Shown piece by piece: positions 24,301-40,315 of a stretch of 64,000 bases of DNA. This DNA is from Ensifer adhaerens (GTDB lineage: Bacteria; Pseudomonadota; Alphaproteobacteria; Rhizobiales; Rhizobiaceae). Location: NCBI RefSeq assembly GCF_000697965.2, contig NZ_CP015882.1:806001-870000 (forward strand), in the 5' to 3' direction. Under the pieces are notes generated by a model that was given only the letters and a program-made list of their open reading frames with translations, did not search any database and was not told where the DNA came from. The translations under genes and the position numbers were made by a program. Positions within the stretch are counted from its first letter, which is position 1. Every line of letters begins with the position of its first letter.

Positions 24301-26813
24301 GCGTGCTCGACTCGCTGCAGTCCGGCCAGAAGCTGACCCAGACCTATGACGTCACCGTCGATGACGGCAAGGGCGGCAAGGCGACCCAGACGGTGACCAT
24401 CACGATCACCGGCACGAACGATGCTCCGGTAATCACCTCGGTCTCACAAGGCGGTGCGGTGACGGAGATCGCCGACGGAGCGACCGGTGAGAATACGGCC
24501 ACGCACACGCACGGCGGCACGATCGGCTTTTCCGACGTCGACACGCTGGATACCCACAGCGCCAGTTTCACGGCGCAGGGCGGTGGCTATCTCGGCACTT
24601 TCTCGCTCGGCTCGCTGAACCAGTCGACCGACTCGGTTGGCTGGAGCTTCCAGGTGGCCGACAACGTGCTGGATTCGCTGAATGCTGGTGAGACGCTGAC
24701 GCAGAAGTACGATGTGACGATCGATGACGGCCATGGCGGCACGGCGGTACAGACGGTAACGATCACGATCACTGGCACTGATGATGGCGTGAGCGTCAAC
24801 GGGCTGTCGTCCAGCGCCGAAGAGACGGTTTACGAGAAAAATCTCTCGGATGGTTCTTCGCCGAATGTGGCTGCACTTACGCAGACCGGCAGCTTCTCCG
24901 TGACGACGCCGGACGGACTCGCCGGCCTGAAGATTAATGGTACTTCGGTCGTGACGGGGGGCGCCTACGCCGTAGGAACCACGGTGGACACGGCACTTGG
25001 ACTTCTGACGATCACCGGCTACACGCCAACGACGGTCAACGGTACGGTGACGGGCGCAACCTTCACCTACAGCTATCTGCTGCAGGACAACAGCTTGGCG
25101 CATACTGCGGCTGGAGCCGATAGCGGGGTCTTCGATAACTTCGTCGTCGCCGTGACAGATGAAGATGGTTCGACGAGCAATGCCACGCTCAACATCCGGA
25201 TCGTCGACGATGTCCCGACCGTCCAATCCATCAGCAGCGCCTACATGGGCAACGGTACCGGTGCGCTGGAAGGTGTCATCAATGCGACGCCAGGCGCCGA
25301 CGGCATCAAAGTTTACAAGATCGACAGCGTGGGCGGGCTGCCTACTGGCTGGACCACAACGGGAACGGGCACCGGGCAGGTGCTCGTGAAGGACAACTTC
25401 GGTACCGACATCTATCGCCTGACAACGAACGCGGACGGGACCTATCAACTGGAACAGTTGAAGGAACGTCCTGGAACGCAGGTAACCATTGATGCGGCGA
25501 ACGATTTCCCCAATAGCCCAACGAAGACCTACGATTTCGGCTTCGCCAAGTTTACAGCACTTGCATCCTCCTCGGGGCAAGTGACCTTCAATGCCAACAC
25601 GGCGTCAGGCGGTGGAAACGAGTTCGGGATCGGCAATCCGGCCTTCTCTACTGGGGAGAAGTTCAAGATTGAATTCGATAAGGATGTATCGTCGGTTACC
25701 TTGCGTTTCGGGACGGTTAAAGATCCAGGATCGATTGAGTTCACGGTAAGGGATGGCAATTCCACGCCATACACCTTTTCCAAGACTGTCGTCGCGGGGC
25801 AGACGAGTGTTACAATTCTTCCGAGCGATGTCGGATTCAAGTTCGATTACATCGAAGTTCTTGGCAAGAACGGCATCAATGTCTCCTTCACGACGGTAGG
25901 TTACACCGAAACCGTCGCCGCTTCGGATTTGACGCTGACTTTTGGCGTTACCGGAGAAGACAGGGATGGCGATTTGTCGAATTCCTCGACGCTCACCTTC
26001 GTGTCCGACGGATCCACAACCACGGCAAATGAGATCAGCGGCAGTGCGGGGCATGATGTCATCCATGGCGGAGCTGGCGACGACACGCTCAACGGAGGTG
26101 ACGGCAACGACATCATCTATGCGAGCGCGGGCGACGACGACATTAATGGCGGAGCAGGCGTGGACCTGCTCAACTTTTCAGATGCGACCGGTCCCGTCAC
26201 GTTTACGCTGGTACAGAGCAGTTGGGAGGATGATGTAGATCTTTCCAGCGTCGGCCTGGGAGAGGAAGACTACAGGAATATAGAAGGTGTCATTGGCTCC
26301 GACTTCAATGACAAGCTTTACGGTAGCAGTTATGGCGACATTCTGGCCGGGGGCGAGGGCAACGATACGCTTTCGGGCAATGGCGGAGCCGACAAGCTCT
26401 ACGGCGATGCCGGCAATGATACGCTGGTTGGCGGTTCCGGCAACGACACGCTGTATGGCGGGACGGGCGTCGACAAGCTGACTGGTGGCTCAGGCGACGA
26501 CACCTTCGTTCTCGATGCGAAAGACCTGCAACTCGACATCGCCGACGTCATCACCGACTACGACGGCGACGACGACTCTGTCGACTTGTCGGCTTTGCTC
26601 GGTAACCTGCCTTCGGGAACGACGCTTGATGGCGACTATCTCCAGGTGGTTCAGGATGGGCAGAACGCCAACCTGCAAGTGGACACCGAAGGTAACGCCG
26701 GTAGTGGTGGCTGGCATACGGTTGCCGTGTTGGAGAACTTCAATGTCTCGACGGAAGTTGTGAAGGTGCTGTTCAACGAAAACGGGACGAAAACATCGCA
26801 GGATGTGCACTAA
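15330..26813 (+). CDS. Giant LapA-like RTX adhesin, type I secreted (3,827 residues)
   Basis: A secreted, surface-retained adhesin exported by the upstream TolC-ABC-HlyD system. The ATG at 15330 is preceded by GAGGGG. The N-terminal region (about 1-200) lacks a signal peptide and holds a LapG-like cleavage candidate VAAG at 141-144. Residues about 200-727 contain T1SS-143/cadherin-like domains. Residues 728-3147 are exactly 20 tandem VCBS-like domains of 121 residues, each ending in a TGTNDAPVITS-type motif. A further T1SS domain region (about 3148-3560) follows. RTX nonapeptides (GGxGxDxLxGG, about 3571-3727) bind calcium after secretion, and the C-terminal 100 residues, uncleaved, act as the secretion signal (DxxDVITDYDGDDDSVDLS type). 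A role in cell adhesion or biofilm formation is inferred from the family. Confidence 0.93.
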   Translation: MATEGTAISNDAAALSAEAIEFRNAPDGKADRLVAQAAPAGESELIDPATGAPVKGAETVPQTAPMPTEISADASNIVHLPVGASIEKIKVVGSDIVLEQPDGSTITIHNAALKVPTFLIGDAEIPRETLVAVLGENGINVAAGPDGSISVVSNQSSGGDFAGANGDIGEAGPVINLLAPTALQFPTLETTELLPPTLDPNDAPSIIPDGSSGPGGIFVSDRQVDEAGLASGSRAGDGSASVKGIFTISDPDGAGDIASLTINGRTFPIGGLVGQPVAGQFGVLTITAYDPATGVAQYTYELTSAITSSGVNPGANVEQDRDIFTLTVTDGDGATGTATLRVDVVDDIPVIGITNPETAQVAEGQTLSGNWTLTGGADGVGTVDVTVGDTTQTLTLTAGQKVDFTLAEGTLTVNADKTWSFTAASNLNNAGGLDVTFSLSARDGDNDATSDSQTIKVVDGAGPSVDPLAASAALTLDDQNLANGSTPVGGAETSSGTIGFVAGSDAIATIAFGDTSGLTGVLVWDRVSDTQIVGRAGGATLVTLDLVRAGDSATVTATLNGNYASHPGINSDDLANLGQVKVVATDIDGDRAEGTVTVAVSDDMPVAPADTDSVSEDGAVFADGNVLTGSGGADENGTDGVKDIAGADGVSVTSVSFGSTTGLVGGSTAGQFGTLVLNSDGSYTYTLNNATAGVQSLAAGQMVTDTFTYEITDGDGDRSSTTVTITITGTNDAPVITTGPQSGKVAEIGDNAAGENTVTHTQGGAVGFSDVDTLDQHSASFTAGGDGYLGTFSLGTVDQAGDKVGWNFEIADSVLDSLQAGQILTQTYDVTVDDGNGGTATQTVTIVITGTNDAPVITSGVQSGSVTEIADKATGENTVTHTQGGAVGFSDVDTLDTHSASFKANGEGYLGKFALDPVNQSGNSVGWTFKVADGVIDSLQAGQSLTQTYDVTISDGHGGTATQTVTIVITGTNDAPVITSGVQSGAVTEITDKATGENTVTHTQGGAVGFSDVDTLDTHTASFKANGNGYLGTFALDPLNQATDQVGWSFKVADSVLDSLQAGQKLTQTYDVTVDDGHGGTATQTVTITITGTNDAPVITSGWQLGGVVERFDGFPGENTVTHTQDGTIGFRDVDTLDTHTASFTAGGNGYLGTFSLDPLNQATDKLGWNFQVADSVLDSLQAGQILVQTYDVTVDDGHGGTATQTVTIVIAGTNDAPVITSGVQSGAVTEIADKATGENTVTHTQDGAVTFTDVDTLDTHSASFLPQGRGYLGTFSLDAVDQAAERIGWNFKVADGVLDSLQAGQTLTQKYTVFVNDGHGGIVAQTVTIAITGTNDAPVITSGAQSATVTERGDGAAGENSVVHVNAGKVAFADVDTLDTHSASFKANGEGYLGKFALDPVNQSGNSVGWTFKVADGVIDSLQAGQSLTQTYDVTISDGHGGTAIQTVTIVITGTNDAPVITSGVQSGAVTEITDKATGENTVTHTQGGAVGFSDVDTLDTHTASFKANGNGYLGTFALDPLNQATDQVGWSFKVADSVLDSLQAGQKLTQTYDVTVDDGHGGTATQTVTITITGTNDAPVITSGWQLGGVVERFDGFPGENTVTHTQDGTIGFRDVDTLDTHTASFTAGGNGYLGTFSLDPLNQATDKLGWNFQVADSVLDSLQAGQILVQTYDVTVDDGHGGTATQTVTIVIAGTNDAPVITSGVQSGAVTEIADKATGENTVTHTQDGAVTFTDVDTLDTHSASFLPQGRGYLGTFSLDAVDQAAERIGWNFKVADGVLDSLQAGQTLTQKYTVFVNDGHGGIVAQTVTIAITGTNDAPVITSGAQSATVTERGDGAAGENSVVHVNAGKVAFADVDTLDTHSASFKANGEGYLGKFALDPVNQSGNSVGWTFKVADGVIDSLQAGQSLTQTYDVTISDGHGGTAIQTVTIVITGTNDAPVITSGVQSGAVTEITDKATGENTVTHTQGGAVGFSDVDTLDTHTASFKANGNGYLGTFALDPLNQATDQVGWSFKVADSVLDSLQAGQKLTQTYDVTVDDGKGGTATQTVTITITGTNDAPVITSGWQLGGVVERFDGFPGENTVTHTQDGTIGFRDVDTLDTHTASFTAGGNGYLGTFSLDPLNQATDKLGWNFQVADSVLDSLQAGQILVQTYDVTVDDGHGGTATQTVTIVIAGTNDAPVITSGVQSGAVTEIADKATGENTVTHTQDGAVTFTDVDTLDTHSASFLPQGRGYLGTFSLDAVDQAADRIGWNFKVADGVLDSLQAGQTLTQKYTVFVNDGHGGIVAQTVTIAITGTNDAPVITSGAQSATVTERGDGAAGENSVVHVNAGKVAFADVDTLDTHSASFKANGEGYLGKFALDPVSQSGNSVGWTFKVADGVIDSLQAGQSLTQTYDVTISDGHGGTATQTVTIVITGTNDAPVITSGVQSGAVTEITDKATGENTVTHTQGGAVGFSDVDTLDTHTASFKANGNGYLGTFALDPLNQATDQVGWSFKVADSVLDSLQAGQKLTQTYDVTVDDGHGGTATQTVTITITGTNDAPVITSDAQGGVVTEIADKATGENTATHTQGGTIGFSDVDTLDEHSASFTANGNGYLGTFALDPLNQATDKVGWSFNVADSVLDSLQAGQTLTQAYDVTVDDGKGGTATQTVTITITGTNDAPIITSGTQSGSVTEIADKATGETTATHTQGGTIGFSDVDTLDEHNVSLTANGNGYLGTFALDPVDQAGDKVGWTFKVADGVIDSLQAGQSLTQTYDVTIDDGHGGTATQTVTITITGTNDAPIITSGTQSGSVTEIADKATGENTAMHTQGGTIGFSDVDTLDTHSASFTANGNGYLGTFALDPLNQTTDKVGWSFNVADSVLDSLQAGQTLTQAYDVTVDDGKGGTATQTVTITITGTNDVPIITSGTQSGSVTEIADKATGENTATHTHGGTIGFSDVDTLDEHGASFTANGNGYLGTFALGTLDQAGNAVGWSFNVVDSVLDSLQSGQKLTQTYDVTVDDGKGGKATQTVTITITGTNDAPVITSVSQGGAVTEIADGATGENTATHTHGGTIGFSDVDTLDTHSASFTAQGGGYLGTFSLGSLNQSTDSVGWSFQVADNVLDSLNAGETLTQKYDVTIDDGHGGTAVQTVTITITGTDDGVSVNGLSSSAEETVYEKNLSDGSSPNVAALTQTGSFSVTTPDGLAGLKINGTSVVTGGAYAVGTTVDTALGLLTITGYTPTTVNGTVTGATFTYSYLLQDNSLAHTAAGADSGVFDNFVVAVTDEDGSTSNATLNIRIVDDVPTVQSISSAYMGNGTGALEGVINATPGADGIKVYKIDSVGGLPTGWTTTGTGTGQVLVKDNFGTDIYRLTTNADGTYQLEQLKERPGTQVTIDAANDFPNSPTKTYDFGFAKFTALASSSGQVTFNANTASGGGNEFGIGNPAFSTGEKFKIEFDKDVSSVTLRFGTVKDPGSIEFTVRDGNSTPYTFSKTVVAGQTSVTILPSDVGFKFDYIEVLGKNGINVSFTTVGYTETVAASDLTLTFGVTGEDRDGDLSNSSTLTFVSDGSTTTANEISGSAGHDVIHGGAGDDTLNGGDGNDIIYASAGDDDINGGAGVDLLNFSDATGPVTFTLVQSSWEDDVDLSSVGLGEEDYRNIEGVIGSDFNDKLYGSSYGDILAGGEGNDTLSGNGGADKLYGDAGNDTLVGGSGNDTLYGGTGVDKLTGGSGDDTFVLDAKDLQLDIADVITDYDGDDDSVDLSALLGNLPSGTTLDGDYLQVVQDGQNANLQVDTEGNAGSGGWHTVAVLENFNVSTEVVKVLFNENGTKTSQDVH
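17511..24770 (+). repeat. Tandem array of 20 x 363-bp VCBS-like units
   Basis: The segment from ACCGGCACGAACGATGC recurs at 17511, 17874, 18237 and so on to 24771, an exact 363-bp (121-codon) period. The total of 7,260 bp equals 20 units with no length change. Units 1-2 and 16-20 are diverged; units 3-15 are near-identical in a four-unit pattern. Confidence 0.95.
18237..22592 (+). repeat. Higher-order repeat: three 1,452-bp copies of a four-unit block
   Basis: Units 3-6, 7-10 and 11-14 are nearly identical at the nucleotide level (copies at 18237, 19689 and 21141), with only scattered substitutions (for example GCGACCCAG versus GCGATCCAG, GCTGAAAGG versus GCTGACAGG). Unit 15 (22593-22955) is a partial fourth copy matching unit 3. 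This indicates recent duplication or gene conversion by blocks of four. Confidence 0.92.
26041..26510 (+). repeat. RTX nonapeptide calcium-binding repeats
   Basis: Two runs of GGxGxDxLxGG-type repeats (GGAGDDTLNGG, GGEGNDTLSGN, GDAGNDTLVGG, GGSGDDTFVL and others) near the adhesin C-terminus, separated by a stretch of about 60 residues. They are the hallmark of type I-secreted RTX proteins. Confidence 0.93.
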
Positions 26814-29406: not shown

Positions 29407-29420
29407 TGGTAACGTTCCCA
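29407..29420. promoter_or_regulatory. LacI-family operator upstream of lacI
   Basis: TGGTAACGTTCCCA is an imperfect copy (one mismatch) of the perfect palindrome found at 30571. It lies 51 bp before the LacI-type gene, as expected for an autoregulatory operator at the operon promoter. The rest of 29252-29471 shows no gene. Confidence 0.65.
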
Positions 29421-29471: not shown

Positions 29472-30521
29472 ATGAAGAACGGACCCCGGCAACGGGCCAC
29501 CATTATCGACGTCGCGGAGCGGGCAGGGGTCTCGAAGAGCACGGTTGCACGTGTTCTGGCGGGTTCTGCCAGCATTTCCGACGAAGCCCGCGACCGCGTG
29601 CTGAAGGCCGTTGCAGCCACCGGCTACGAGCGCAATCATCTGGCCGTCGGCATGCGTTCGGGGCGCAGCGGCATGCTCGGCCTGGTCATTCCCGATATCA
29701 CCAACCCCTTCTGGGCCGAAGTCGCCCGCGGCGCCCAGGATCGCGCCGCCAAGGACGACATTTCGCTTCTCGTCTTCTCGTCGGACTGGGATGCCGGCAC
29801 GGAGGCGACGCATCTTCGCGCCCTGCGGCGCGCCCGTGTCGATGGCGCGATCATCAATCCGGTCGCCGACAATTTCGATGATCTCGATCGCTTCGGCTTA
29901 CCCTTCGTTTTCATCGGATCGAGCGCCGAGCGTTTTCCGGATACCTTGAGCGTCGGATCGGATATCGCCCAGGCTGTCCGTCTCGGCATGGATATCCTCG
30001 TTGAGCGCGGACACCCGGCGCCGGCCCTGATGCTCGGCCCGCGGTCGCGTCTTGCGCGCGCCCGGTTCCTGCGCGCCGTGCACGAGCATTGCATCGCGCG
30101 CGACATCGACCCCGACATCTTGCTGGTGGAAGAATCCGACTACACGGTCGAGGGTGGCCGAAAGGCCATGGGGCGTTTGCTCGCCGGGCCGTGGAGAGGC
30201 AGTCGCGCCGTCTTCGTCGCCAACGACCTGATGGCACTCGGTGCCATGATCGCCGTGCGCGAGGCGGGGCTCCGGTGCCCGGAGGATATTTCCATTCTTG
30301 GCTTCGACGGCATTCCGGCGGGTGCTTTCTCCTGGCCCGGTCTGACGACGATCGAAAAACCTGGCCGGCAGATCGGCATTCGCGCGGTCGAATGCCTGCT
30401 CGATCAGATTGCCGGCCGCCCGGAGCACGGCCGGATATTTCTGCCGTGCCGACTGGTCGAGCGCGGTTCGCTTGCCGATGTCTCGGCCTCGGTAGCTGTG
30501 CGCACGGCGGCAGGGAGGTAA
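29472..30521 (+). CDS. LacI-family transcriptional regulator of the downstream catabolic operon
   Basis: A 349-residue repressor. The ATG at 29472 follows GGGAGGAAA. The helix-turn-helix and hinge occupy about residues 8-60 (ATIIDVAERAGVSKSTVARV, ...GYERNHLA). A periplasmic-binding-fold effector domain follows (LGLVIPDITNPFWAEVARGA, ILGFDGIPAGAFSWPGLTTI). Its stop lies 2 bp before the first permease gene, so regulator and transporter are cotranscribed. Two GGGAACGTTCCC-type palindromes, one before this gene and one inside the next, are the natural operators. The inducer is presumably the imported sugar conjugate or a metabolite of it. Confidence 0.92.
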   Translation: MKNGPRQRATIIDVAERAGVSKSTVARVLAGSASISDEARDRVLKAVAATGYERNHLAVGMRSGRSGMLGLVIPDITNPFWAEVARGAQDRAAKDDISLLVFSSDWDAGTEATHLRALRRARVDGAIINPVADNFDDLDRFGLPFVFIGSSAERFPDTLSVGSDIAQAVRLGMDILVERGHPAPALMLGPRSRLARARFLRAVHEHCIARDIDPDILLVEESDYTVEGGRKAMGRLLAGPWRGSRAVFVANDLMALGAMIAVREAGLRCPEDISILGFDGIPAGAFSWPGLTTIEKPGRQIGIRAVECLLDQIAGRPEHGRIFLPCRLVERGSLADVSASVAVRTAAGR

Positions 30522-30523
30522 CA

Positions 30524-31489
30524 ATGAGCGTAAGCAACGATCTTGTAGCGGATGCAGCCATGCCTAGAAGTGGGAACGTTCCCAACGTCCATCGGCGAAG
30601 CGTCACGAAAAACGTGCGGCAATGGTGGCCCTACTACCTGATGATGGCGCCCGGGCTGATCTTCTTCGTGATCTTTCACTATTTTCCGATCTGGGAAGCC
30701 AAGATCGCCTTCGAGCAGTTGCGCATCATCCCGCCGAACATCTGGGTCGGGATCAAGCATTTCCAGACGCTCTTCTCCTCGCCGATCTTCTGGCAGGTGC
30801 TGATAAACACGCTGATCATCTCGACAATGAAGATCGTCTTCGTCTTCCCGGTCCCGATTATCGTTGCGCTGCTGCTCAACGAGATCCGGGGCGGCGCTTT
30901 CCGCAAGTTCATCCAGTCGGCGATCTACCTGCCGCATTTCCTTTCCTGGGTGGTCATCGCCGGCGTGTTCATCGCGGTGCTTTCGCCGAGCGACGGCGCG
31001 GTCAACGACATCATCGGTTTCTTCGGATTGCAGCCGGTCTCCTTCATGACCGACACGGGCTCGATCCGCTGGGTGCTGGTCTTCTCCGAGATCTGGCGAT
31101 CGGCCGGCTGGGACAGCCTGCTTTACCTTGCCGCCATCATCGCCATCGACCAGGAACTCTATGATGCGGCCGAGATCGACGGAGCCAATCGCTGGCAGAA
31201 GATCCGCTACGTCACCATTCCCGGCATCGTGCCGACGATCGCGACGCTGTTCATCCTCAACGCCGGCATGTTCCTGAACGCCGACCTCAACCAGGTGATC
31301 AACTTCTCCAACGACGTGGTGCGCAGCAAGATCGATATCATCGACACCTATGTCTACCGCATCGGCCTGCAGACCGGCGAGTATTCGCTGGCAACGGCCG
31401 CCGGCCTCTTCAAGGCGGTTCTCGGCATGCTGATGATCGTCGCCGCCCACCTTCTTTCCAAACGTCTTACCGGCAAGGGGGTATGGTGA
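30524..31489 (+). CDS. CUT1 ABC sugar permease (LplB/YteP-like), subunit 1
   Basis: A 321-residue inner-membrane subunit with about six transmembrane helices (first at about 40-60: YYLMMAPGLIFFVIFHYF). The EAA loop reads EIDGANRWQKIRYVTIPGI. It resembles the LplB/YteP branch of carbohydrate permeases. The ATG at 30524 has GGGAGG upstream and sits 2 bp after lacI. Codons 16-21 contain the perfect LacI-type palindrome, which is unusual for coding sequence. A GTG at residue 31 would be an alternative start beyond the operator. It ends in an overlap with the second permease (TGATG). Confidence 0.9.
   Translation: MSVSNDLVADAAMPRSGNVPNVHRRSVTKNVRQWWPYYLMMAPGLIFFVIFHYFPIWEAKIAFEQLRIIPPNIWVGIKHFQTLFSSPIFWQVLINTLIISTMKIVFVFPVPIIVALLLNEIRGGAFRKFIQSAIYLPHFLSWVVIAGVFIAVLSPSDGAVNDIIGFFGLQPVSFMTDTGSIRWVLVFSEIWRSAGWDSLLYLAAIIAIDQELYDAAEIDGANRWQKIRYVTIPGIVPTIATLFILNAGMFLNADLNQVINFSNDVVRSKIDIIDTYVYRIGLQTGEYSLATAAGLFKAVLGMLMIVAAHLLSKRLTGKGVW
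30571..30584. promoter_or_regulatory. Intragenic LacI-family operator, perfect palindrome
   Basis: TGGGAACGTTCCCA, a perfect 14-bp palindrome of the LacI/GalR type, lies within codons 16-21 of the first permease gene. It is 1.16 kb from the upstream copy at 29407. A loop between the two, or a roadblock to elongation, would repress the transporter genes. Confidence 0.7.
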
Positions 31490-32391
31490 TGGCCGCCCAC
31501 AACGTTCGCAGAACGCCGCTCGAGCGGCTCGAATATGCGATCATCGTCTCGACGCTGATGTTCCTCGTCGTACTGACGGTCCAGCCGCTGCTCAACCTGC
31601 TCGCCATCTCCTTTTCGGATCCGGGCAAGGTTGCCGGCATGAGCGGCCTGACGGTGGTCCCCAACGGGTTTTCGACCGACGTCTGGAGCCTCCTGGTCAA
31701 CAACCCGGCCGTCCAGCGCGGCCTCCTGAACTCGATCTTCATCACGCTGGTCAGCACCGTCCTTGGTGTCGTGCTGACGGCGCTGATGGCCTGGGCACTT
31801 TCCCGCCCGGGTTTGCCGGGGCGGCGCGCGATTTTCGTCTTCGTGCTGGTGACGATCGTCTTTGAGCCCGGCATCATTCCCGATTATTTCATCAACAAGC
31901 GCCTCGGCCTTCTCGACAGCTACTGGTCTCTGATCCTCTTCAAGGTTGTGAACGCCTGGTATCTGATCATTCTCGTCCGCTTCTTCGAGGAAGTGCCGAA
32001 GGAACTGATCGAGGCCTCGGAGCTCGACGGCGCCAACCCTTTCCAGATCTTCTGGTACGTGGCGCTACCACTCGCCAAGTCGGCGCTTGCGACCATCGCT
32101 CTCTTCTACTTCGTCTTCCACTGGAACGAGTTCTTCCGGGCGATGATCTATCTCAACGACCAGTCAAAATGGCCGCTGCAGGTCGTGCTGCGCCAGTTCG
32201 TGGTCGAGGGCGACAAGCTCGCCATGGTCGGGGTCGTCGACAGCAACAACTACACCGGTGCGAGCCAGATCAACATTCGCGCGCTGAAGGCAGGCATGAT
32301 CCTGCTTACGATCGCGCCGATCCTCGCAATCTACCCACTCATTCTGAAGTTCTTCACCAAGGGCACCATGAGCGGTGCGCTGAAGGGCTGA
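31489..32391 (+). CDS. CUT1 ABC sugar permease (YtcP-like), subunit 2
   Basis: A 300-residue inner-membrane subunit with about six transmembrane helices. The EAA loop is EASELDGANPFQIFWYVALPL, with GMIIPDYF-like topology (here EPGIIPDYFINKRLGLLDSY). ATG 31489 overlaps the stop of permease 1 as TGATG, with GGGGG seven bases upstream; ATG 31483 is also in frame. The protein pairs with the first permease and the downstream solute-binding protein. Substrate specificity cannot be read from it. Confidence 0.9.
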   Translation: MAAHNVRRTPLERLEYAIIVSTLMFLVVLTVQPLLNLLAISFSDPGKVAGMSGLTVVPNGFSTDVWSLLVNNPAVQRGLLNSIFITLVSTVLGVVLTALMAWALSRPGLPGRRAIFVFVLVTIVFEPGIIPDYFINKRLGLLDSYWSLILFKVVNAWYLIILVRFFEEVPKELIEASELDGANPFQIFWYVALPLAKSALATIALFYFVFHWNEFFRAMIYLNDQSKWPLQVVLRQFVVEGDKLAMVGVVDSNNYTGASQINIRALKAGMILLTIAPILAIYPLILKFFTKGTMSGALKG

Positions 32392-32440
32392 CGATGCAGA
32401 ACCGAACCATAAAAGCCATAGCATATTGGGAGGAACAACC

Positions 32441-33862
32441 ATGCTTGGAAATCTGATCCTTGGCGCAACCACCGCCATGGCATTGATGGCGAGCGTCGCC
32501 ATGCCCGCCTTCGCCGATCCGGTGACGATCCGCGTCGTCTCGAAGGATCTCACGACGAGCAATCCTGACGACGTGAAGCTGATGAAGGCCTATGAGGAGG
32601 CGCTGAAGGCCAAGGGCACCGACATCCATATCCAGGTCGTCGACCTGCCGTCCTCTGGCTATGCCGACAAGCTCAGCGCCATGCTTCTGTCCGGTGATAT
32701 CCCCGATCTCATCTATTTCCAGGGCGGCGACGCCAAGATGGCCGAACAGGGCGTGCTGGAGGACTGGAACACCTGGCTGCCGAAGACGACCTATCTCAAG
32801 GACGCGCTCTTCCCGCACAATGTCGAGCGGCTGAAGAACTATCCCTACCTGCTCTATGTCTACCCGCCGCGCATACCGCAGCCGGTGATCCGCGCGGATT
32901 GGCTCGAGAAAGCGGGCGTCGAAGCACCGAAGACTACGGACGACTACGTCACCCTCTTCAAGGCGATCAAGGACGGCGATTTCGACGGCAACGGCAAGGC
33001 CGACAGCTACGGCGTTACCACCGCCGACAACACTCAAGAGCTCGACGCCGTCTTCAATCAGGCATTTGGCGTCACCGGAACCTGGCTGAAGAACGATGCT
33101 GGCGAGTGGATCCATGCCCGCGTTTCGGCCGCGGAAAAGGCAAAGATCGCTTTCTACGCATCGCTCCGCGAGCAAGGTCTCTATGATCCGGAATTCATCA
33201 CCACCAAGTGGGACGTGAAGGAAGACAAGTTCTATTCCGGCCGTGCCGGGGTGATCTTCGGTTCCTCCGCAGAGGTCATCGACATCTATGGCGGCAAGAT
33301 GCGCCAGGCCCATCCCGGCGTGACCCTCAGCCTGCTTTCGCCGCCGAAGGGTCCGGGCGGCCAGGGCCTGATGGCGCTGGACGTCTCCAAGGAAGCGCGC
33401 GGTCTCGCGATCGCAACGACCTCGGAGCACAAGGAGGAGGTGGTCAAGTTGCTCGACTTCATCGCCAGCCCCGAGGGCCAGGCGATTGAACGGCTCGGCT
33501 TTGAGGGCGAGCAGTACACCAAGGACGGCGAAACCATCAAGCCGACCGACAAGCTCGCTACCTGGTATGCCCGCTTCCTCGTTGCCGCCAACTGGCAGCC
33601 GCCGGTTCAGTGGCTGAGCGATGCCGCGCAGCAATCGCTGAAGACGATCTCCGCCGACTTCAAGCCGGACAACGCCTTCGTCTGGCCTGCGGAATACGCC
33701 ACCGACATCGACGCCACGGAGAACGTCTACCGGGCCTGGGTTTACAAGTTCGTCTCCGGCGAAGCCAAGATGGACCAGTGGGACCAGTTCGTTTCCGAGT
33801 GGAACGCTGCCGGCGGCGAGAAAATGACCGAATATGCAAGGACGGTTCTCAATGACAAATGA
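32441..33862 (+). CDS. Extracellular solute-binding protein of the LacI-linked ABC system
   Basis: A 473-residue periplasmic protein (LipO-like, family 1 solute-binding fold). The ATG at 32441 follows GGGAGGA. A signal peptide ends near AMPAFAD (residue 26), with no lipobox. Typical segments are GDIPDLIYFQGGDAKMAEQG, YLLYVYPPRIPQPVIRADWL and FASPEGQ-like IASPEGQAIERLGFEGEQY. Several aromatic residues in the lobe interface suit a sugar-type ligand. It is followed by an overlap with the first ADP-ribosylglycohydrolase gene, which ties the ligand to those enzymes. Confidence 0.9.
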   Translation: MLGNLILGATTAMALMASVAMPAFADPVTIRVVSKDLTTSNPDDVKLMKAYEEALKAKGTDIHIQVVDLPSSGYADKLSAMLLSGDIPDLIYFQGGDAKMAEQGVLEDWNTWLPKTTYLKDALFPHNVERLKNYPYLLYVYPPRIPQPVIRADWLEKAGVEAPKTTDDYVTLFKAIKDGDFDGNGKADSYGVTTADNTQELDAVFNQAFGVTGTWLKNDAGEWIHARVSAAEKAKIAFYASLREQGLYDPEFITTKWDVKEDKFYSGRAGVIFGSSAEVIDIYGGKMRQAHPGVTLSLLSPPKGPGGQGLMALDVSKEARGLAIATTSEHKEEVVKLLDFIASPEGQAIERLGFEGEQYTKDGETIKPTDKLATWYARFLVAANWQPPVQWLSDAAQQSLKTISADFKPDNAFVWPAEYATDIDATENVYRAWVYKFVSGEAKMDQWDQFVSEWNAAGGEKMTEYARTVLNDK

Positions 33863-35057
33863 TGCTCAAGGGCTCTCCCTTAAGGGACGGGTTCGGGCGC
33901 TTCTCTTTGGCGTCGCCTACGGCGACGCCATCGGGGCGCCGGTCGAAAAGCTCTCCGCTGCGGAAATCCGCCAGCGCTATGGCCGGGTGACATCGCTCGA
34001 CACAGAGTGGCACCGCATGAAGCAGAGTGAGGCGGCCCGCAACGGCCGTGTCCGCGGCAGCGGCATCGTCACCGACGACACGCTGATGACGCTCTGCGTG
34101 ATGTCGATCTACGACGACGTGAAGCGCCATCTCGATGCCTGGGATATGGCCTCGGGCATGGTGCGGGAAATTGCCTGGACGCCGCGCTGGGTGCCGGAGC
34201 TGCAGCGCGAGACGATGCTGATCGAGCGGCTGTTCTATCCTGAGAAGTGGATCTTCCAGCGCCATCAACTTTCCGGCTGCGACCCGCGCCAGGGCGGCGT
34301 CGGCAACATGGTGAACTGTGGCGCGGCGATGTACATCGCGCCGATCGGCGTCGCCAACGCCTGTGATCCGAAGGCAGCCTATGATGAGGCGATCGCCTTT
34401 GCCTCCGGCCACCAGCAGAGCTTCGGCCTGGAAGCTGCCGGCGTACTCGCCGCCGCGGTCGCCGCCGCTTTCGTGCCGGGCACCACCCTCGACACCGTCA
34501 TCAAAGAAACGCTGGCCGTTGCCAAGGACGGAACGCGTGATGCGATCGCCGATATCGTCGAGGCTGCTGGCTCATTGAAGGGCGCGGATCATGCGACAGT
34601 CGTCGCCGAATTCCACCGCATCATCGCGCGCTATTCTCCAATGGGCGACGACGTGCAGCACACGCCGCAGAAGGCCGGCATTGCGACCGACGCCTACCAG
34701 CCATCGCGTCTGCACGCGATCGAGGAACTGCCGCTGGCGCTCGGCTTTGCGGTCGTCAATGACGGTGATTTCTACAAGTCGATCATCGACGGCATCAACT
34801 CCGGCCGCGATACGGACTCGATCGGCGTCATGGCTGGCGCAATCCTCGGCGCCATGCAGGGCGAGAGCATCATCGACCGGGCGATGCTCTCCCAGCTCGA
34901 CCGTGTCAACAAGCTCGATCTCTACCGATCGGCCGATGCGTTTACCGCAACCGTGACCGCAATCCGGGCGGCCGACCACAAACGCGAAATGGCGCGTGCC
35001 ACGGCGCGCGCAGGCCTCTTTGCCGCTCCCGAGCTCACCCAGGTTTCCAGTCTCTAG
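33852..35057 (+). CDS. ADP-ribosylglycohydrolase-fold enzyme 1
   Basis: A 401-residue cytoplasmic enzyme of the ARH/DraG fold, which hydrolyses N- or O-glycosidic bonds with a two-metal centre. Metal-binding motifs are intact: GDAIGAPVE at about 24-32, TDDT at 74-77, and SGRDTDSIG with D320/D322. The start is placed at ATG 33852 (AAGGACGG upstream), overlapping the solute-binding protein stop by 11 bp; ATG 33834 is in frame but lacks this RBS. Inclusion in a sugar-uptake operon argues for cleavage of an imported glycoside or nucleoside-like compound rather than removal of ADP-ribose from proteins. The true substrate is unknown. Confidence 0.85.
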   Translation: MTNDAQGLSLKGRVRALLFGVAYGDAIGAPVEKLSAAEIRQRYGRVTSLDTEWHRMKQSEAARNGRVRGSGIVTDDTLMTLCVMSIYDDVKRHLDAWDMASGMVREIAWTPRWVPELQRETMLIERLFYPEKWIFQRHQLSGCDPRQGGVGNMVNCGAAMYIAPIGVANACDPKAAYDEAIAFASGHQQSFGLEAAGVLAAAVAAAFVPGTTLDTVIKETLAVAKDGTRDAIADIVEAAGSLKGADHATVVAEFHRIIARYSPMGDDVQHTPQKAGIATDAYQPSRLHAIEELPLALGFAVVNDGDFYKSIIDGINSGRDTDSIGVMAGAILGAMQGESIIDRAMLSQLDRVNKLDLYRSADAFTATVTAIRAADHKREMARATARAGLFAAPELTQVSSL

Positions 35058-35073
35058 AATTCGAAAGTATCCG

Positions 35074-37173
35074 ATGCTCAGCACCACAGAAATCTTCGAG
35101 CGTATCTATTCCGGTTTTATCGGCAAGGCGATCGGCGTGCGCTTGGGCGCACCCGTCGAGCCGACGATCTGGAGCTATGAACGCATCCGGGACACCTATG
35201 GCGAGGTGACGGAATATCTGCGCGATTTCAAGAATTTCGCTGCCGATGACGACACCAACGGTCCGGTCTATTTCATCCGGGCGCTGCGCGACTACGGTCT
35301 CGGCGCCACCGCCGAAGAGGTCGGCAAGACCTGGCTGAACTATGCGGCCGAGGAACACGGCATGTATTGGTGGGGCGGCTTCGGCAATTCGACCGAGCAT
35401 ACCGCCTACCAGAACCTGCGCGCTGGCATTCCGGCGCCGCAATCCGGCTCGATCGCCCAGAACGGCACGACGGTTGCCGAGCAGATCGGCGGGCAGATTT
35501 TCATCGACAGCTGGGGCTGGGTGCATCCGGCCGACCCGAAGAAGGCAGCCGAAGCCTCAGCCCGTGCGGCAAGGGTCGCCCATGACGGCGAGGGCCTGCA
35601 TGGCGCCCGCTTCTGCGCCGCGGCCATCGCCCAGGCTTTTGTTGCCAAGAACATCGAGGACGTGATCGAGACGGGTCTCGCGACAATCCCGGCCGACTCC
35701 CTCTATGCCAAGGTTTCGCGCGCGGTACTCCGCTTCCACGACAGCAACCGGAACGACTGGCGTGCCTGCCGCGACATGTTGACGGCGGATTGGGGCTATG
35801 ACCGCTATCCCGGCGTCTGCCACATCATTCCGAATGCCGGCGTCTTGATCATGAGCCTGATCTACGGTCAGGGCGATCTGCCGCGCACCGTCGAGATCGC
35901 CACCATGGCCGGCTGGGACACGGACTGCAACGCCGGCAATGCCGGTGCGATCGTCGGCACGCTGCAAAAGGTGCAGCCGGGCTGGGACAAGTACCGCAAG
36001 CCGATCAACGATTTCGTCGTCGCTTCCGGCGTAACCGGTACGGTCAACGTCGTCGACATCCCCTCCTTTGCCCGTGAACTGACGGTGCTGGCGCTCCGCC
36101 TGCAGGGACGGGAGGCTCCGGCGCTCTGGGTCGAGGATTTCGAGCGCCGCGGCGTTCGCTTCGATTTCGACGCACCCGGCGCCACCCATGGCTTCCGCAC
36201 CGAGCCGTTCAACCAGATCGCCGTCAAGGCATCGGCGGAGCGTCATACGGATAACGCCAAGGGATCGCTGGAAATCCTGCTCGACCGTCTCGAGCGCGGG
36301 CATGGTGGACGCATTTTCTGGAAGCCCTTCTATCGCCGCTCCGACTTCGACGACGAGCGCTACCGCCCGATGTTCACGCCGCTTGCCGATGACGGCCAAA
36401 GGGTGTCGTTCAAGCTCTGGCTCGACCCTTGGAACGGTGACGGCAACCTGCGTGTGGCGCCCTATGTTCGCCGCGCCATGACAGGCGCCATCCAGGAAAC
36501 AGGCGCCTGGCACGTGCCGTCTGCGAGCGGCTGGCAGGACTACGCGTTCACCATCCCCGACGGCAACGGCGAGGCGGTCGACGAGATCGGCATCCTGGTC
36601 GAATATTTCGGGCGCCTGAAATTCCTCGGCCGGCTGTTCCTCGCGGACTTTTCCGTATCCGGCAAGGGTCGCGCCGTCATCGACCCGTCGAAGGAAGCGC
36701 ATGAATGGGGCGGCATCACCCGCTTCACCTGGAACCGCGGCCATTGGAGCCTGCAGCAAGGCCGCATCCATGCCCATACCGCAACCGACGCGGACGCCTG
36801 GACGGGCAATGCCTATCTCCGCGACGTCAGTGTCAAGGCCGAGCTTCAGCCGCACTCGGGTGCCTCGCACCTGGTGGTGGCCCGGGCTCAGGGTACGAGC
36901 CGCTTTTATGCCGCCGGTTTCGAGAACGGCGAAGCCGTGATCCTTCTTGAAGACCACGGCACGAAGATCCTCGCGCGCGGCCCGTTCCGTACCGAATACG
37001 GCCGGAGCTACGCGGTCGATCTCACTGTCGAAGGTGGCAAGCTGACGCTTTCCGTCGATGGCGAGCGGCTGCTTCAGGCAGACGATGGGACGCTGCGCTA
37101 CGGCATGGCTGGCCTTCGCATGGCGTCTGCCGGGCGCATGTCGATCGGCCGGCTTGAGGTCGCCGAGCGCTAA
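35074..37173 (+). CDS. Multidomain ADP-ribosylglycohydrolase-fold enzyme 2 with C-terminal carbohydrate-binding-like domains
   Basis: A 699-residue protein without a signal peptide, 16 bp after ARH 1. Residues about 1-345 are an ARH domain: GFIGKAIGVRLGAPVE, DDDTNG at 58-63, and GWDTDCNAGN with D282/D284. The middle (about 375-540) resembles a galactose-binding-like jelly roll (VSFKLWLDPWNGDGNLRVAP, SGWQDYAFTIPDGNG). The C-terminus (about 560-699) looks like a concanavalin/DUF1080-type beta-sandwich (SRFYAAGFENGEAVILLEDH, YAVDLTVEGGKLTLSVDGE). Such accessory domains are usual on exported glycosidases, not cytoplasmic ones. The start at ATG 35074 matches the family N-terminus, although the RBS is weak. 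Substrate unknown. Confidence 0.82.
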   Translation: MLSTTEIFERIYSGFIGKAIGVRLGAPVEPTIWSYERIRDTYGEVTEYLRDFKNFAADDDTNGPVYFIRALRDYGLGATAEEVGKTWLNYAAEEHGMYWWGGFGNSTEHTAYQNLRAGIPAPQSGSIAQNGTTVAEQIGGQIFIDSWGWVHPADPKKAAEASARAARVAHDGEGLHGARFCAAAIAQAFVAKNIEDVIETGLATIPADSLYAKVSRAVLRFHDSNRNDWRACRDMLTADWGYDRYPGVCHIIPNAGVLIMSLIYGQGDLPRTVEIATMAGWDTDCNAGNAGAIVGTLQKVQPGWDKYRKPINDFVVASGVTGTVNVVDIPSFARELTVLALRLQGREAPALWVEDFERRGVRFDFDAPGATHGFRTEPFNQIAVKASAERHTDNAKGSLEILLDRLERGHGGRIFWKPFYRRSDFDDERYRPMFTPLADDGQRVSFKLWLDPWNGDGNLRVAPYVRRAMTGAIQETGAWHVPSASGWQDYAFTIPDGNGEAVDEIGILVEYFGRLKFLGRLFLADFSVSGKGRAVIDPSKEAHEWGGITRFTWNRGHWSLQQGRIHAHTATDADAWTGNAYLRDVSVKAELQPHSGASHLVVARAQGTSRFYAAGFENGEAVILLEDHGTKILARGPFRTEYGRSYAVDLTVEGGKLTLSVDGERLLQADDGTLRYGMAGLRMASAGRMSIGRLEVAER

Positions 37174-37203
37174 CTGCGCGAGGCGGAAAGAAAGGGAGGA
37201 AAC

Positions 37204-38253
37204 ATGTCCGAGATAGAGCTTAGAAGCGTCGGCAAGAGCTATGGCAGTGTCGCCGTGCTCAACGACATCTCGCTGGAAATGGGCGACGGCGAATTCGTCG
37301 TGCTCGTCGGCCCGTCGGGCTGCGGCAAGTCTACGCTGTTGCGCATGATCGCCGGGCTGGAGGATATTTCAGCTGGCGAGATCACCATCGGTGGCAAGGT
37401 CGTCAACGACATGCCGGCCAAGGAGCGCGACATCGCCATGGTCTTCCAGTCCTATGCGCTCTATCCGCACATGAAGGTCGCGGAAAACATGAGCTTCGCC
37501 TTGAAGCTCGCCGGTGCGCCGAAGGCGGAGATCGAAAAGCGCGTTACCCAGGCGGCCGAAATCCTCGGCCTCGAAAAGCTGCTCGACCGCCTGCCGCGGG
37601 AACTTTCCGGCGGCCAGCGCCAGCGTGTCGCCATGGGTCGCGCCATCGTGCGCGACCCGCGTGCCTTCCTCTTCGACGAACCTCTGTCGAACCTCGATGC
37701 CAAGCTGCGCGTGAAGATGCGCAGCGAAATCAAGAAGCTGCATCAACGGCTTCGCCGCACGATGGTCTATGTCACCCACGACCAGACCGAGGCCATGACC
37801 ATGGCCGACAAGATTGTGGTGATGAACGGCGGAAAGATCGAGCAGGCGGGCGCACCGCTCGATCTTTACAACGATCCTGCCAATCTCTTCGTCGCCGGCT
37901 TCATTGGCTCGCCGGAGATCAACCTGATCGAGGCGGTCACAGAGGGAGCGACGGCCTTGACCCGGGGCGGCGTATCCCTGCCGCTCGGGCGACAGGTGCA
38001 GGCTGGCAAGCGGGTCGTCTGCGGCATCCGCCCGCAGCACATCACGCTCGGAACAACGGGCGTGCCGGGGCGCATCAGCCTCGTCGAGCCGACCGGCGAG
38101 GACCAGGAAATCGTCGTCGACATGGGCGGCCAGGATATCTCGGTCGTCGTCCACGGCGGCAAGCTACTTTCGGCCGGGCAGGATGTGACGCTGACGATCG
38201 ATGCCGACAAGGTTCTGCTCTTCGACAAGGATACCGGGGAGCGCCTTCGATGA
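37204..38253 (+). CDS. CUT1 ABC transporter ATPase (UgpC/MsmX-like)
   Basis: A 349-residue ATPase that powers the permease pair of this operon. Walker A is GPSGCGKST, the signature is LSGGQRQRVAMGRAIVRDP, Walker B is AFLFDEPLSNLDAKLR, and the H-loop is YVTHDQTEAMT. A C-terminal MOP/TOBE regulatory domain occupies about 240-349. The ATG follows GGGAGGAAAC. It is the only stand-alone CUT1 ATPase in the window, and could also serve the ATPase-less system at 48.8-53 kb, since MsmX-type ATPases can be shared. Its stop overlaps the CoA-transferase start (ATGA). Confidence 0.95.
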   Translation: MSEIELRSVGKSYGSVAVLNDISLEMGDGEFVVLVGPSGCGKSTLLRMIAGLEDISAGEITIGGKVVNDMPAKERDIAMVFQSYALYPHMKVAENMSFALKLAGAPKAEIEKRVTQAAEILGLEKLLDRLPRELSGGQRQRVAMGRAIVRDPRAFLFDEPLSNLDAKLRVKMRSEIKKLHQRLRRTMVYVTHDQTEAMTMADKIVVMNGGKIEQAGAPLDLYNDPANLFVAGFIGSPEINLIEAVTEGATALTRGGVSLPLGRQVQAGKRVVCGIRPQHITLGTTGVPGRISLVEPTGEDQEIVVDMGGQDISVVVHGGKLLSAGQDVTLTIDADKVLLFDKDTGERLR

Positions 38254-39467
38254 GTGGATTTGCGAAGCGACAGTTCGATCCCGACGCCAAGGGACCGCTG
38301 GTCGGCACGAGGGTTCTGGATCTTTCCCGGCTCGTTGCCGGCAACATGTTGTCGCTGCAGCTGGCCGATGCCGGCGCCGATGTCATCAAGATCGAGCCGC
38401 CGGCGGGCGATCCGCTCAGAGACTGGAAGGATGATGGCCACTCGCTCTATTGGAAGACCTATAGCCGCAACAAGCGCTCCGTCGTTCTGAACCTCAGGCA
38501 AGAGGCGGCGATGACGGCGCTCTGGGCACTGATCGCTACGGCCGATGTCTTCATCGAGAATTTCCGGCCGGGAACGCTGGAGCGCATGGGGCTTTCGCCG
38601 GAAACGCTGCACGCCCGCAATCCCAACCTGATCATCGTGCGCATTTCCGGTTTCGGCCAGACGGGGCCTTACGCGCAGTTCCCGGGCTTTGGCACCATCA
38701 TCGAAGGCATGAGCGGTTTTGCCTACAGAACCGGCTTTCCCGATCGCGAGCCCGTGCTGCCGCCGCTGGCGCTTGCCGACATGATCGCCGGTGTCTATGG
38801 CAGCTCGGCCACCGTGACAGCGTTGCTTGCGCGCGATCGCGGCTACGCAAAAGGACAGGTCATCGACCTGTCGCTGCTGGAACCGATGTTCTCGGTGCTC
38901 GGGCCAGAAGCGGCGATCTATCAGACGACCGGCAAGATCAAGGAGCGCGTGGGCAGCGCCTCCAATACGGCCGCCCCGCGCAATGTCTACCGCTGCCGCG
39001 ACGGAAAGTACGTGGCGCTGTCGGGATCGACGCCGCAGGTCGCACGGAGGATCTTCGAGATCATCGGCCGTGCCGACATGAACCAGGACCCGCGCTTTGC
39101 CACCAATTCTGAACGCGTCAAAAATCGCGATCTGGTCGACGAGGCCGTTGGCGGCTGGTTTGCCCGGCACGACCATGACGAGGCGCTGAAGATCATGCGT
39201 GACGCCGGCGCGACGGTCGGGCCGATCTACAACATCGCAGATGCCGCGTCGGACCCGCATTTCGTCGAGCGCGAAATCATCGTCGATGTGGAGGATGACG
39301 AGTTCGGCAGCCTGCCGATGCACAACATCGTGCCGCGGCTTTCCCAGACGCCGGGCGTCTGGCGGCGGCCGGCACCAGCGCTTGGGGAACACACGGCGGA
39401 AGTTCTGGCCGAAGCGGGACTGGATCGCGGCGCGATCGAGACGATACTCCAGGGTAAAGCCGCATGA
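38250..39467 (+). CDS. CaiB/BaiF-family (class III) CoA-transferase
   Basis: A 405-residue enzyme that moves CoA between carboxylic acids through an aspartyl-CoA intermediate. The catalytic Asp is D177 in PPLALADMIAGVYG. Other family features are GTRVLDLSRLVAGNM, ADAGADVIKIEPPAGDP, NKRSVVLNL and FRPGTLERMGL. It is translationally coupled on both sides (ATGA with the ATPase and with the lyase gene). Paired with a CitE-like lyase, the likely job is activation of a hydroxy-dicarboxylate (malate, citramalate or similar), as in itaconate or malate-CoA routes. No hydratase gene is present, so the acid would already carry a hydroxyl group. Substrate inferred only. Confidence 0.9.
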   Translation: MSGFAKRQFDPDAKGPLVGTRVLDLSRLVAGNMLSLQLADAGADVIKIEPPAGDPLRDWKDDGHSLYWKTYSRNKRSVVLNLRQEAAMTALWALIATADVFIENFRPGTLERMGLSPETLHARNPNLIIVRISGFGQTGPYAQFPGFGTIIEGMSGFAYRTGFPDREPVLPPLALADMIAGVYGSSATVTALLARDRGYAKGQVIDLSLLEPMFSVLGPEAAIYQTTGKIKERVGSASNTAAPRNVYRCRDGKYVALSGSTPQVARRIFEIIGRADMNQDPRFATNSERVKNRDLVDEAVGGWFARHDHDEALKIMRDAGATVGPIYNIADAASDPHFVEREIIVDVEDDEFGSLPMHNIVPRLSQTPGVWRRPAPALGEHTAEVLAEAGLDRGAIETILQGKAA

Positions 39468-40315
39468 GGCTTCGCTCCCTACTCTACGTCCCGGCCTCGT
39501 CCGCAAAATTCATCGCCAAGGCGCACGAACGCGGAGCGGATGCGATCATCCTCGACCTGGAAGATTCAGTCGCCCCGGATCAGAAACAGGCCGCAAGGGA
39601 TGGGTTGAAGGACGCCGTGGCGCAGGTGGCACGCGGTGGTGCGACCGTCTTTGTCCGCGTCAATTCGGCGCCGGATCTGCGGATGGCGGATGCAGAGGCC
39701 GCCTGCCGTGCCGGCGCGTTCGGTCTCTATGTCGCGAAAACCCGGTCGCCGCAGGAGCTAGAGGATATTGCAGCGCATCTCGCACCAGTTGAGCGGCAGA
39801 TCGGCAGGCCGCCGGTCGCCTTCGTGCCACTCCTCGAAGATGCCGGGGCAGTTCTCGATGCGCGCGCGATTGCCCGCGTCAGCCGCGTGGTCGGCCTTGC
39901 CGCTGGCGGCGAAGACATCGCGACCAGCATGGGCGCAGAACCGCTGCCAGACGTATTGCGACTTCCGAAACTGATGGTCCACCTTGCCGCCAAGGCGGAA
40001 GGCAAGCTGTCCTTCGGCATGCTTTTGACGGTTGCGGACTATACGCGACTGGATGCCTTGAAGGCAGCCGCTCGTGAGGCGAAGGCCCACGGGTTCGATG
40101 GCGCGAGCTGTGTCCACCCGTCCGTGGTCCCGGTGCTGAATGCGTCTTACTCCCCGAGCCCAGAACGGATCGCCTGGGCAAAGTCCGTGATCGACGCAGC
40201 GAAGACGGCGCAGGCAGACGGCCGTGGCGCCTTCGTGCTGAACGGGACCATGGTGGATGCGCCGATCATCGAGCGCGCGCATGATGTTCTCGAACAGGCA
40301 GGCGACCTCGGCTGA
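39464..40315 (+). CDS. HpcH/HpaI-family CoA lyase (CitE/malyl- or citramalyl-CoA lyase-like)
   Basis: A 283-residue TIM-barrel lyase. Motifs are RSLLYVPASSAKFIAKA, ILDLEDSVAPDQK, the conserved Arg in VFVRVNS, metal ligands in PLLEDAG and GGEDIATSMGAE, and the C-terminal GFDGASCVHPSVVPVLN. The family cleaves malyl-CoA, methylmalyl-CoA, citramalyl-CoA or citryl-CoA into an acyl-CoA and an oxoacid. The overlap with the CoA-transferase gene implies that the two act in sequence. It appears to end the operon. The 235 bp that follow contain an eight-T run near 40480, but no good hairpin. Confidence 0.9.
   Translation: MRLRSLLYVPASSAKFIAKAHERGADAIILDLEDSVAPDQKQAARDGLKDAVAQVARGGATVFVRVNSAPDLRMADAEAACRAGAFGLYVAKTRSPQELEDIAAHLAPVERQIGRPPVAFVPLLEDAGAVLDARAIARVSRVVGLAAGGEDIATSMGAEPLPDVLRLPKLMVHLAAKAEGKLSFGMLLTVADYTRLDALKAAAREAKAHGFDGASCVHPSVVPVLNASYSPSPERIAWAKSVIDAAKTAQADGRGAFVLNGTMVDAPIIERAHDVLEQAGDLG

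Follow-up and report, generated by a model that had tools for sequence, protein, structure and literature searches.

Enzymes of the ADP-ribosylglycohydrolase (ARH) family are known mainly for erasing ADP-ribosylation, and to our knowledge many bacterial ARH proteins have no assigned role. CitE-type lyases, such as malyl- and citramalyl-coenzyme A (CoA) lyases, act on 3-hydroxyacyl-CoA with a carboxyl group on the hydroxyl carbon. Each kind of enzyme is found in a described gene cluster. The yegTUV-yegW locus of Escherichia coli comprises a GntR regulator, a predicted nucleoside symporter, and one ARH, and its authors name no clear function for any of its genes (PMC10819704). The itaconate operons (Ict/Ich/Ccl; RipABC) combine a CoA-transferase with a CitE-like lyase that cleaves citramalyl-CoA (PMC12290011). 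A CoA-transferase for (S)-citramalate is listed as unknown in PMC9007349. Here we describe a nine-gene run from Ensifer adhaerens that combines a sugar-type importer with two ARHs, a class III CoA-transferase, and a CitE-like lyase. It lies on contig C3 of the 7.27-Mb host genome, within a window of 64,000 nt, which is the whole stretch of DNA analyzed.

We propose that this operon serves the catabolism of a conjugate in which a furanosyl group, probably ribosyl, is joined to a 2-hydroxy di- or tricarboxylic acid. We give this interpretation slightly less than an even chance, and we infer every substrate and reaction in it. The operon itself is apparently undescribed. A literature search, with most subscription papers outside its coverage, found no described system with this gene set, in line with an earlier reading of the DNA from its letters alone (the sequence-only reading), which knew of no described route of this kind. 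Searches for ARHs combined with CoA genes, ribokinase, importer terms, or Sinorhizobium found nothing relevant, and the main text of a survey of LacI regulons (PMC4052901) mentions neither ribosyl compounds nor glycohydrolases. The features of the locus are as follows.

29408..29419, + strand: operator O1 (GGTAACGTTCCC), 5' of lacI; an exact copy at 66 of 75 loci
29472..30521, + strand: LacI-family repressor; PF00356 and PF13377, no NCBIfam cut-off reached
30524..31489, + strand: CUT1 permease 1; PF00528 (BPD_transp_1)
30572..30583, no strand assigned: operator O2 (GGGAACGTTCCC), a perfect palindrome within the 5' end of permease 1; 71 of 71 loci
31483..32391, + strand: CUT1 permease 2; PF00528 (BPD_transp_1)
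32441..33862, + strand: periplasmic solute-binding protein; PF01547 (SBP_bac_1), E 4e-26
33852..35057, + strand: ARH1, single-domain ADP-ribosylglycohydrolase fold; PF03747, E 1.4e-41, 143.5 bits
35074..37173, + strand: ARH2, ARH domain with a long C-terminal extension; PF03747, E 1.4e-50, 173.1 bits
36709..37134, + strand: levanase-like stretch at the C-terminus of ARH2; profile match, positions 545-688
37204..38253, + strand: importer ATPase of UgpC/MalK type; NF008653, 486.6 bits against a cut-off of 432
38250..39467, + strand: class III CoA-transferase; PF02515 (CoA_transf_3), E 1.9e-118, 396.2 bits, Asp177 conserved
39464..40315, + strand: predicted CitE-like acyl-CoA C-C lyase; PF03328 (HpcH_HpaI), E 1e-31, with Arg65, Glu125, Asp151, and Asp265 conserved

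The nine genes (29472-40315) are all on the + strand, in the order LacI, two permeases, solute-binding protein, ARH1, ARH2, ATPase, CoA-transferase, and lyase. By their coordinates, four of the eight gene junctions overlap and four have gaps of 2-49 bases; the overlaps between the ATPase and CoA-transferase genes and between the CoA-transferase and lyase genes are 4 bases each. The ATPase alone reached an NCBIfam cut-off, the other eight proteins scoring below every one. The ARH1-ARH2 stretch (3322 bases) is 100% identical to the 1.46-Mb Ensifer adhaerens replicon NZ_CP121310.1.

Two conserved operators accompany the lacI gene. O1 lies about 20-80 bases 5' of lacI, and five of the nine loci without an exact copy have a form with one mismatch. 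O2 is located at the lacI-permease junction in every locus with both lacI and permease 1: 67 copies are exact and 4 carry one mismatch, and the offset of 48 is constant in most of the loci. As a control, 37 of 1420 random stretches of the same length from the same loci contained the site, some of which may overlap true sites. The window and plasmid loci are part of the locus set for either operator, and a single locus enters each set twice, as L047 and as L090. The O2 copy of the window falls within the coding start of permease 1, where it is read as Gly-Asn-Val-Pro, residues that look conserved for DNA reasons. An alternative start of permease 1, at 30560, is the RefSeq start in Ensifer sp. 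PDNC004. The exact copy of O1 at 29408..29419 is the only one in the host genome, and genome sites with at most one mismatch numbered 11 (O1, and O2 on both strands, included) against 29 in a reversed control. A wider LacI regulon was rejected on these counts, and the regulator thus appears to be local. These results support a single, probably self-contained operon under a local LacI. The sequence-only reading had placed its named genes at 30524-40315 and described them as overlapping or nearly touching under one LacI. The coordinates proved exact, with all of the named genes present there on the + strand, and the gene junctions, the two operators, and the lack of further genome sites above chance bear out the rest.

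The importer has the make-up of a CUT1 ATP-binding cassette (ABC) importer, with Pfam matches for two permeases, a solute-binding protein, and a TOBE-domain ATPase that passes the UgpC cut-off. No second importer was detected among the nine genes with Pfam. The solved structures nearest in sequence to the solute-binding protein are AlgQ1 and AlgQ2 (AlgQ1 1y3n, E 3.7e-20), which we take to be alginate-oligosaccharide binders. ARH1 and ARH2, both far above the PF03747 gathering score of 26.2 bits, are the only matches to this family in the host genome at E<=0.001. In ARH1, T74-D75-D76-T77 and D320 are invariant (29 rows), and in ARH2, D58-D59-D60 and D282/D284 are conserved (25 rows); these Asp motifs are presumably the metal-binding ligands. 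ARH1 is remotely related to MJ1187, DraG, and ARH3. It scored 56.8 bits with the model for DraG, the ADP-ribosyl-[dinitrogen reductase] hydrolase (TIGR02662, cut-off 337.05), which ARH2 did not match. A single-sequence search with ARH2 found no solved relative. A profile built from 31 ARH2 sequences matched the levanase chains 4b1l, 4b1m, and 4azz (E 5.6e-8 to 6.5e-8) over the C-terminal piece, which we take to be a carbohydrate-binding domain, CBM66. In Pfam searches, no more than 4 of 25 ARH2 members gave a signal in the tail, for laminin-G or 3-keto-disaccharide hydrolase (best E 0.0005-0.0007).

The CoA-transferase shows both the PF02515 domain and the Asp of class III CoA-transferases. 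Asp177, presumably the catalytic Asp of the family, is kept in at least 95% of 59 ARH-linked rows and in 13 of 13 ARH-free rows, and the nearest solved relatives are 4ed9 and the succinate-hydroxymethylglutarate CoA-transferase 9br6. The lyase aligns over nearly its full length, C-terminal Asp included, with CLYBL (5vxc) and Mycobacterium tuberculosis CitE (6aq4). It has the Arg, Glu, and Asp set together with the C-terminal Asp of stand-alone citramalyl/malyl-CoA-type lyases. These four residues (R65, E125, D151, and D265), which we assume to be those of the CitE-type active site, occur in at least 95% of the 49 ARH-linked rows (window included) and in 15 of 15 ARH-free rows. The families named in the sequence-only reading, a class III CoA-transferase and a CitE-type lyase, were therefore confirmed, with conserved catalytic residues. 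Neither protein reached the model of a more specific function. The lyase scored 148.2 bits with the citrate lyase beta subunit model TIGR01588 (cut-off 443.4), with no CitD or CitF partner among the nine genes, and the itaconate-pathway model RipC_Ccl gave 97.4 bits (cut-off 375). The CoA-transferase scored 273.5 bits with SucGlutTfsCaiB (cut-off 750).

A search of genome contigs with ARH1 gave 254 relatives, and we retained the best 80. In 65 of these the contig reached far enough on both sides to be assessed, and the other 15 were dropped. ARH1 is in every locus by construction, since it was the query. LacI was found in 64 loci, permease 1 in 60, the binding protein in 61, ARH2 in 56, the CoA-transferase in 53, and the lyase in 47. 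An ATPase match was found in 52, including L069 and L089, where an unrelated gene of opposite orientation was matched. The gene order recurs across Rhizobiales (with Devosia and Pelagibacterium among the relatives), Rhodobacterales, and Inquilinus, in some loci without the ATPase. A search for the conserved cluster had been suggested in the sequence-only reading; the arrangement recurs in most of the 65 assessable loci, all from other genomes, and is therefore far beyond chance. ARH2 is present in all 53 loci with the CoA-transferase, which is absent from all nine loci without ARH2. Among the 37 loci with all nine genes, the pairwise protein distances of the CoA-transferase follow those of LacI (r 0.92), ARH2 (0.92), and the lyase (0.90) more closely than those of ARH1 (0.77) and the permeases (0.66-0.73). 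In L060, L061, L063, L064, L065, and L096, the CoA-transferase is kept and no CitE-like gene was detected nearby; these loci may have lost the lyase, or it may act in trans. The cluster in L098, a record titled Mycobacterium sp. KBS0706, is very close to that of Inquilinus limosus, and the record is probably misnamed or contaminated. A copy in Rhizobium sp. RCAM05350 (L028) has several genes in pieces and was excluded from the counts.

The operon is genus-wide in Ensifer as sampled and patchy outside it. In a search of 101 genomes, ARH1 was found in 16 out of 16 of the genus (host included), with three strong and four weak matches elsewhere. In evenly drawn phylum and class samples, the host was the only genome with an ARH1 match at E<=1e-30, one of 398 genomes in one sample and one of 385 in the other. 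The protein database contains at least 3888 relatives of ARH1 at E<=0.001, which counts against plain rarity; some, at 74-76% identity, are labelled enterobacterial.

Variants of the locus bear on the sugar. A ribokinase-like gene is nearby in 6 of the 65 loci, five of them among the 12 loci without the CoA-transferase and one among the 53 with it. L121 holds the kinase as well as the CoA pair, and L084 has a short kinase match (residues 1-81) after the lyase. Outside the 65-locus set, a ribokinase gene lies directly 3' of the ATPase in Agrobacterium (L026) and divergent from lacI in Rhizobium leguminosarum (L031), and Phyllobacterium (L027) has a kinase fragment. Ruegeria L124 also has a ribokinase, on a contig too short for counting. 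For all six relatives' kinases tested, the best model was D_ribokin_bact (228-291 bits), and none reached the ribokinase cut-off of TIGR02152 (299.65). The kinase motifs N-x-D, GGKGANQ, Q-x-E, and (G/A)AGD are kept in 10 out of 10 aligned. The host has one kinase above the ribokinase cut-off, elsewhere in the genome at C2:602793. The kinases of the relatives are ribokinase-like, which indicates a pentose for the sugar.

Related gene sets were found further afield. LacI, permease genes, and a ribokinase accompany two or more ARHs on a Deinococcus plasmid and in Nonomuraea, and the CoA pair was neither annotated nor detected in these stretches (about 9-10 kb on each side). In Nonomuraea gerenzanensis (L242, 2803-12412), three consecutive PF03747 genes, an ARH2-like match, and a ribokinase follow LacI and permease-like matches. 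In four Burkholderiaceae loci, a sugar transporter replaces the importer; the one tested belongs to the GluP subfamily. In L090 (Pararhizobium mangrovi), L106, L119, and L124, the ribokinase gene is followed by one for a putative membrane protein of about 341 residues. Other plasmids of Rhizobium and Agrobacterium, as well as Enterobacter hormaechei, encode ARH2-like proteins (32-45% identity), and the contexts inspected there have a different importer or few partners and are uninformative on the acid.

Adjacent CoA-transferase/lyase pairs were also found without ARHs. Their neighbours in 16 ARH-free stretches, judged by eye from the reading frames and not by family search, include ABC importers of several types and tripartite-type transporters. 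Annotated sets of an extracellular solute-binding protein, an iron ABC permease, and an ATPase accompany the pairs of Aureimonas, Shinella, and Pararhizobium, and annotated tricarboxylate transporters those of Marinibacterium and Nitratireductor. Ensifer sp. PDNC004 has, besides its ARH cluster, an ARH-free copy of the pair with another importer. The closest ARH-free pairs are 68-78% identical, and a 2-hydroxyacid dehydrogenase and an RraA-type aldolase then adjoin in three annotated records. In L238, L239, and L240 (from Aureimonas, Shinella, and Pararhizobium), the regulator, importer, CoA-transferase, lyase, dehydrogenase, and aldolase are all shared, and this set is perhaps another undescribed acid pathway.

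We constructed trees of 59 ARH-linked plus 19 further CoA-transferases (the 19 include two unpaired outliers) and of 49 plus 21 lyases. Three switches between ARH-linked and ARH-free context are required on the CoA-transferase tree and four on the lyase tree, with at least three changes forced by well-supported branches in each. The ARH clusters of Limimaricola, Ahrensia, and Flavimaricola fall outside the main group, together with the tricarboxylate-linked pairs, and this points to a second recruitment of the CoA pair. The pair has thus probably joined ARH clusters more than once, and it is mainly because of this separate recruitment that we believe the ARH cluster to release the acid that the CoA pair degrades. 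We read the ARH core and the CoA pair as two modules that apparently combine, rather than as chance neighbours. The sequence-only reading had counted separation of the CoA genes from the transporter against itself, and this is seen in part: 12 of the 65 loci have the ARH core without the CoA-transferase, and the pair occurs without ARHs. Its argument that the substrate is a glycoside of a hydroxy acid is strengthened by the ribokinase-like genes found where CoA genes are missing and by the ARH-free CoA pairs.

In the proposed pathway, LacI would stay on O1 and O2 as long as neither the substrate nor its sugar is present, and the CUT1 importer would bring the conjugate in whole. ARH1, together with ARH2 and its carbohydrate-binding-like tail, would hydrolyse the furanosidic bonds. 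The released pentose would be phosphorylated by a ribokinase, encoded beside the operon in some relatives and elsewhere in the genome in Ensifer, and would then enter the pentose phosphates. The class III CoA-transferase would move CoA from succinyl-CoA or a similar donor to the released acid, and the resulting 3-hydroxyacyl-CoA would be split by the CitE-like lyase, giving acetyl-CoA along with a 2-oxoacid, which would be pyruvate in the case of citramalate. Because of the substrate requirement of CitE-type lyases, the acid is expected to be malate or a C2-substituted malate. Malate can be oxidised directly, without CoA activation, so citramalate or a homologue is the likelier. Of the malate or citramalate originally suggested, citramalate or a substituted malate would accordingly be favoured and malate disfavoured. 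The assignment of the sugar is weaker than that of the acid.

Several observations weigh against this proposal. We know of no natural ribosyl conjugate of such a hydroxy acid, and a literature search for one found none. All of the solved ARHs are only distantly related to ARH1 and ARH2. The assignment of the sugar leans on relatives' kinases that fall below the curated cut-off, the host kinase at C2:602793 has no Asn in its first motif, and 7 of the 12 loci without the CoA-transferase also have no ribokinase, contrary to a simple swap. Six loci with the CoA-transferase have no lyase nearby. The history of the CoA pair could also be a single gain with losses in ARH clusters, and the CoA-transferase and lyase of Marinibacterium (L244) fall in different tree groups. 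Lastly, the loci are related by descent, so the counts are not independent.

It is also possible, although we consider it unlikely, that the acid is not bound to the sugar, the operon importing a pentofuranoside or oligosaccharide for its sugar and the CoA pair degrading a hydroxy acid from the same source or derived from the sugar. The loci with an ARH core and no CoA-transferase would fit this, as would the CoA pairs that stand alone beside other importers. However, the nine genes include no second importer, the CoA-transferase overlaps the ATPase gene and the lyase gene by 4 bases each, and the pair probably joined ARH clusters repeatedly. That the CoA genes are mere passengers of an ordinary sugar import operon, with no link to the pathway, is improbable: the lyase or both CoA genes are lost at some loci, but the CoA-transferase is kept in 53 of 65, and at least 95% of the 59 rows have its catalytic Asp.

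The characterised ARHs cleave ADP-ribosyl bonds, and the two ARHs could instead act on N-ribosyl or nucleoside-like compounds, with the CoA pair acting on a carboxylic acid left from the breakdown of the base or side group. The E. coli yegTUV genes, which encode a predicted ARH, a putative nucleoside symporter, and a putative sugar kinase according to PMC10819704, point the same way. We nevertheless regard this as quite unlikely, since the nine genes include no enzyme for degrading a base or ring, the solute-binding protein resembles oligosaccharide binders, and a sugar transporter takes the place of the importer in the four Burkholderiaceae loci. The sequence-only reading had compared its substrate with the glucosamine-malate unit of bacillithiol, which is a malate glycoside. 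An ARH2-like gene (about 33% identity) on an Enterobacter hormaechei plasmid does lie between chitoporin and glnS-nagEBA, an order that is usual in enterobacteria, and its position may mean nothing. The comparison found no support here, and this substrate or a similar hexosaminide of malate is very improbable: all six kinases tested are ribokinase-like, indicating a pentose, no hexosamine gene is among the nine genes or annotated in the clusters of the relatives examined (Deinococcus plasmid included), and malate would not need CoA activation.

A furanosyl conjugate of a hydroxy acid remains our preferred substrate, and it can be taken further. The ARHs here may be catabolic furanosidases and not erasers of ADP-ribosylation, with members of three phyla eating ribofuranosyl conjugates and Ensifer and Devosia using a compound like ribosyl-citramalate, although on balance we doubt it. 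Doubtful to the same degree is the joint claim that ARH hydrolysis, CoA transfer, and acyl-CoA lysis form a new sequence acting on a previously unrecognised class of natural products. ARHs in members of three phyla hold the position of a glycoside hydrolase in a catabolic operon. If these ideas are true, the ARH family would have a nutritional function, soil and marine bacteria would compete for an unrecognised sugar-acid conjugate, the portable module of CoA-transferase and lyase would gain a testable substrate, and the CoA-transferase of the window would become a candidate for the (S)-citramalate CoA-transferase. The difference between clusters of the ribokinase type and those of the CoA type indicates which halves of the molecule to seek.

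Elsewhere in the window, a protein of 3826 residues (15330-26807, + strand) has cadherin-like/Ig domains and C-terminal RTX repeats. Near it are an ABC exporter (9716-11893, + strand) and a transglutaminase-like cysteine proteinase, Peptidase_C93 (13917-14840, - strand). The set looks like a LapA-type adhesin with its exporter and a LapG-type protease.

Compared with known systems, the operon shares its CoA-transferase and CitE-like lyase with the itaconate operons, but has no itaconyl-CoA hydratase among its nine genes and couples a sugar-type importer with two ARHs. E. coli yegTUV-yegW likewise has a predicted ARH, a sugar kinase, and a transporter with a local regulator; it differs in its GntR regulator, its predicted nucleoside symporter, its single ARH, and its set of three genes with no CoA genes. 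The lyase resembles the stand-alone lyases CLYBL and M. tuberculosis CitE over its full length and in its catalytic residues, including the C-terminal Asp, although it falls below every NCBIfam cut-off. Likewise, the CoA-transferase shares its family and Asp177 with SUGCT and other class III CoA-transferases, while scoring below the SucGlutTfsCaiB cut-off. The subunit make-up and the binding-protein family are those of CUT1 oligosaccharide importers with an AlgQ-type solute-binding protein; no classical glycoside hydrolase is among the nine genes, and the two ARHs occupy that place.

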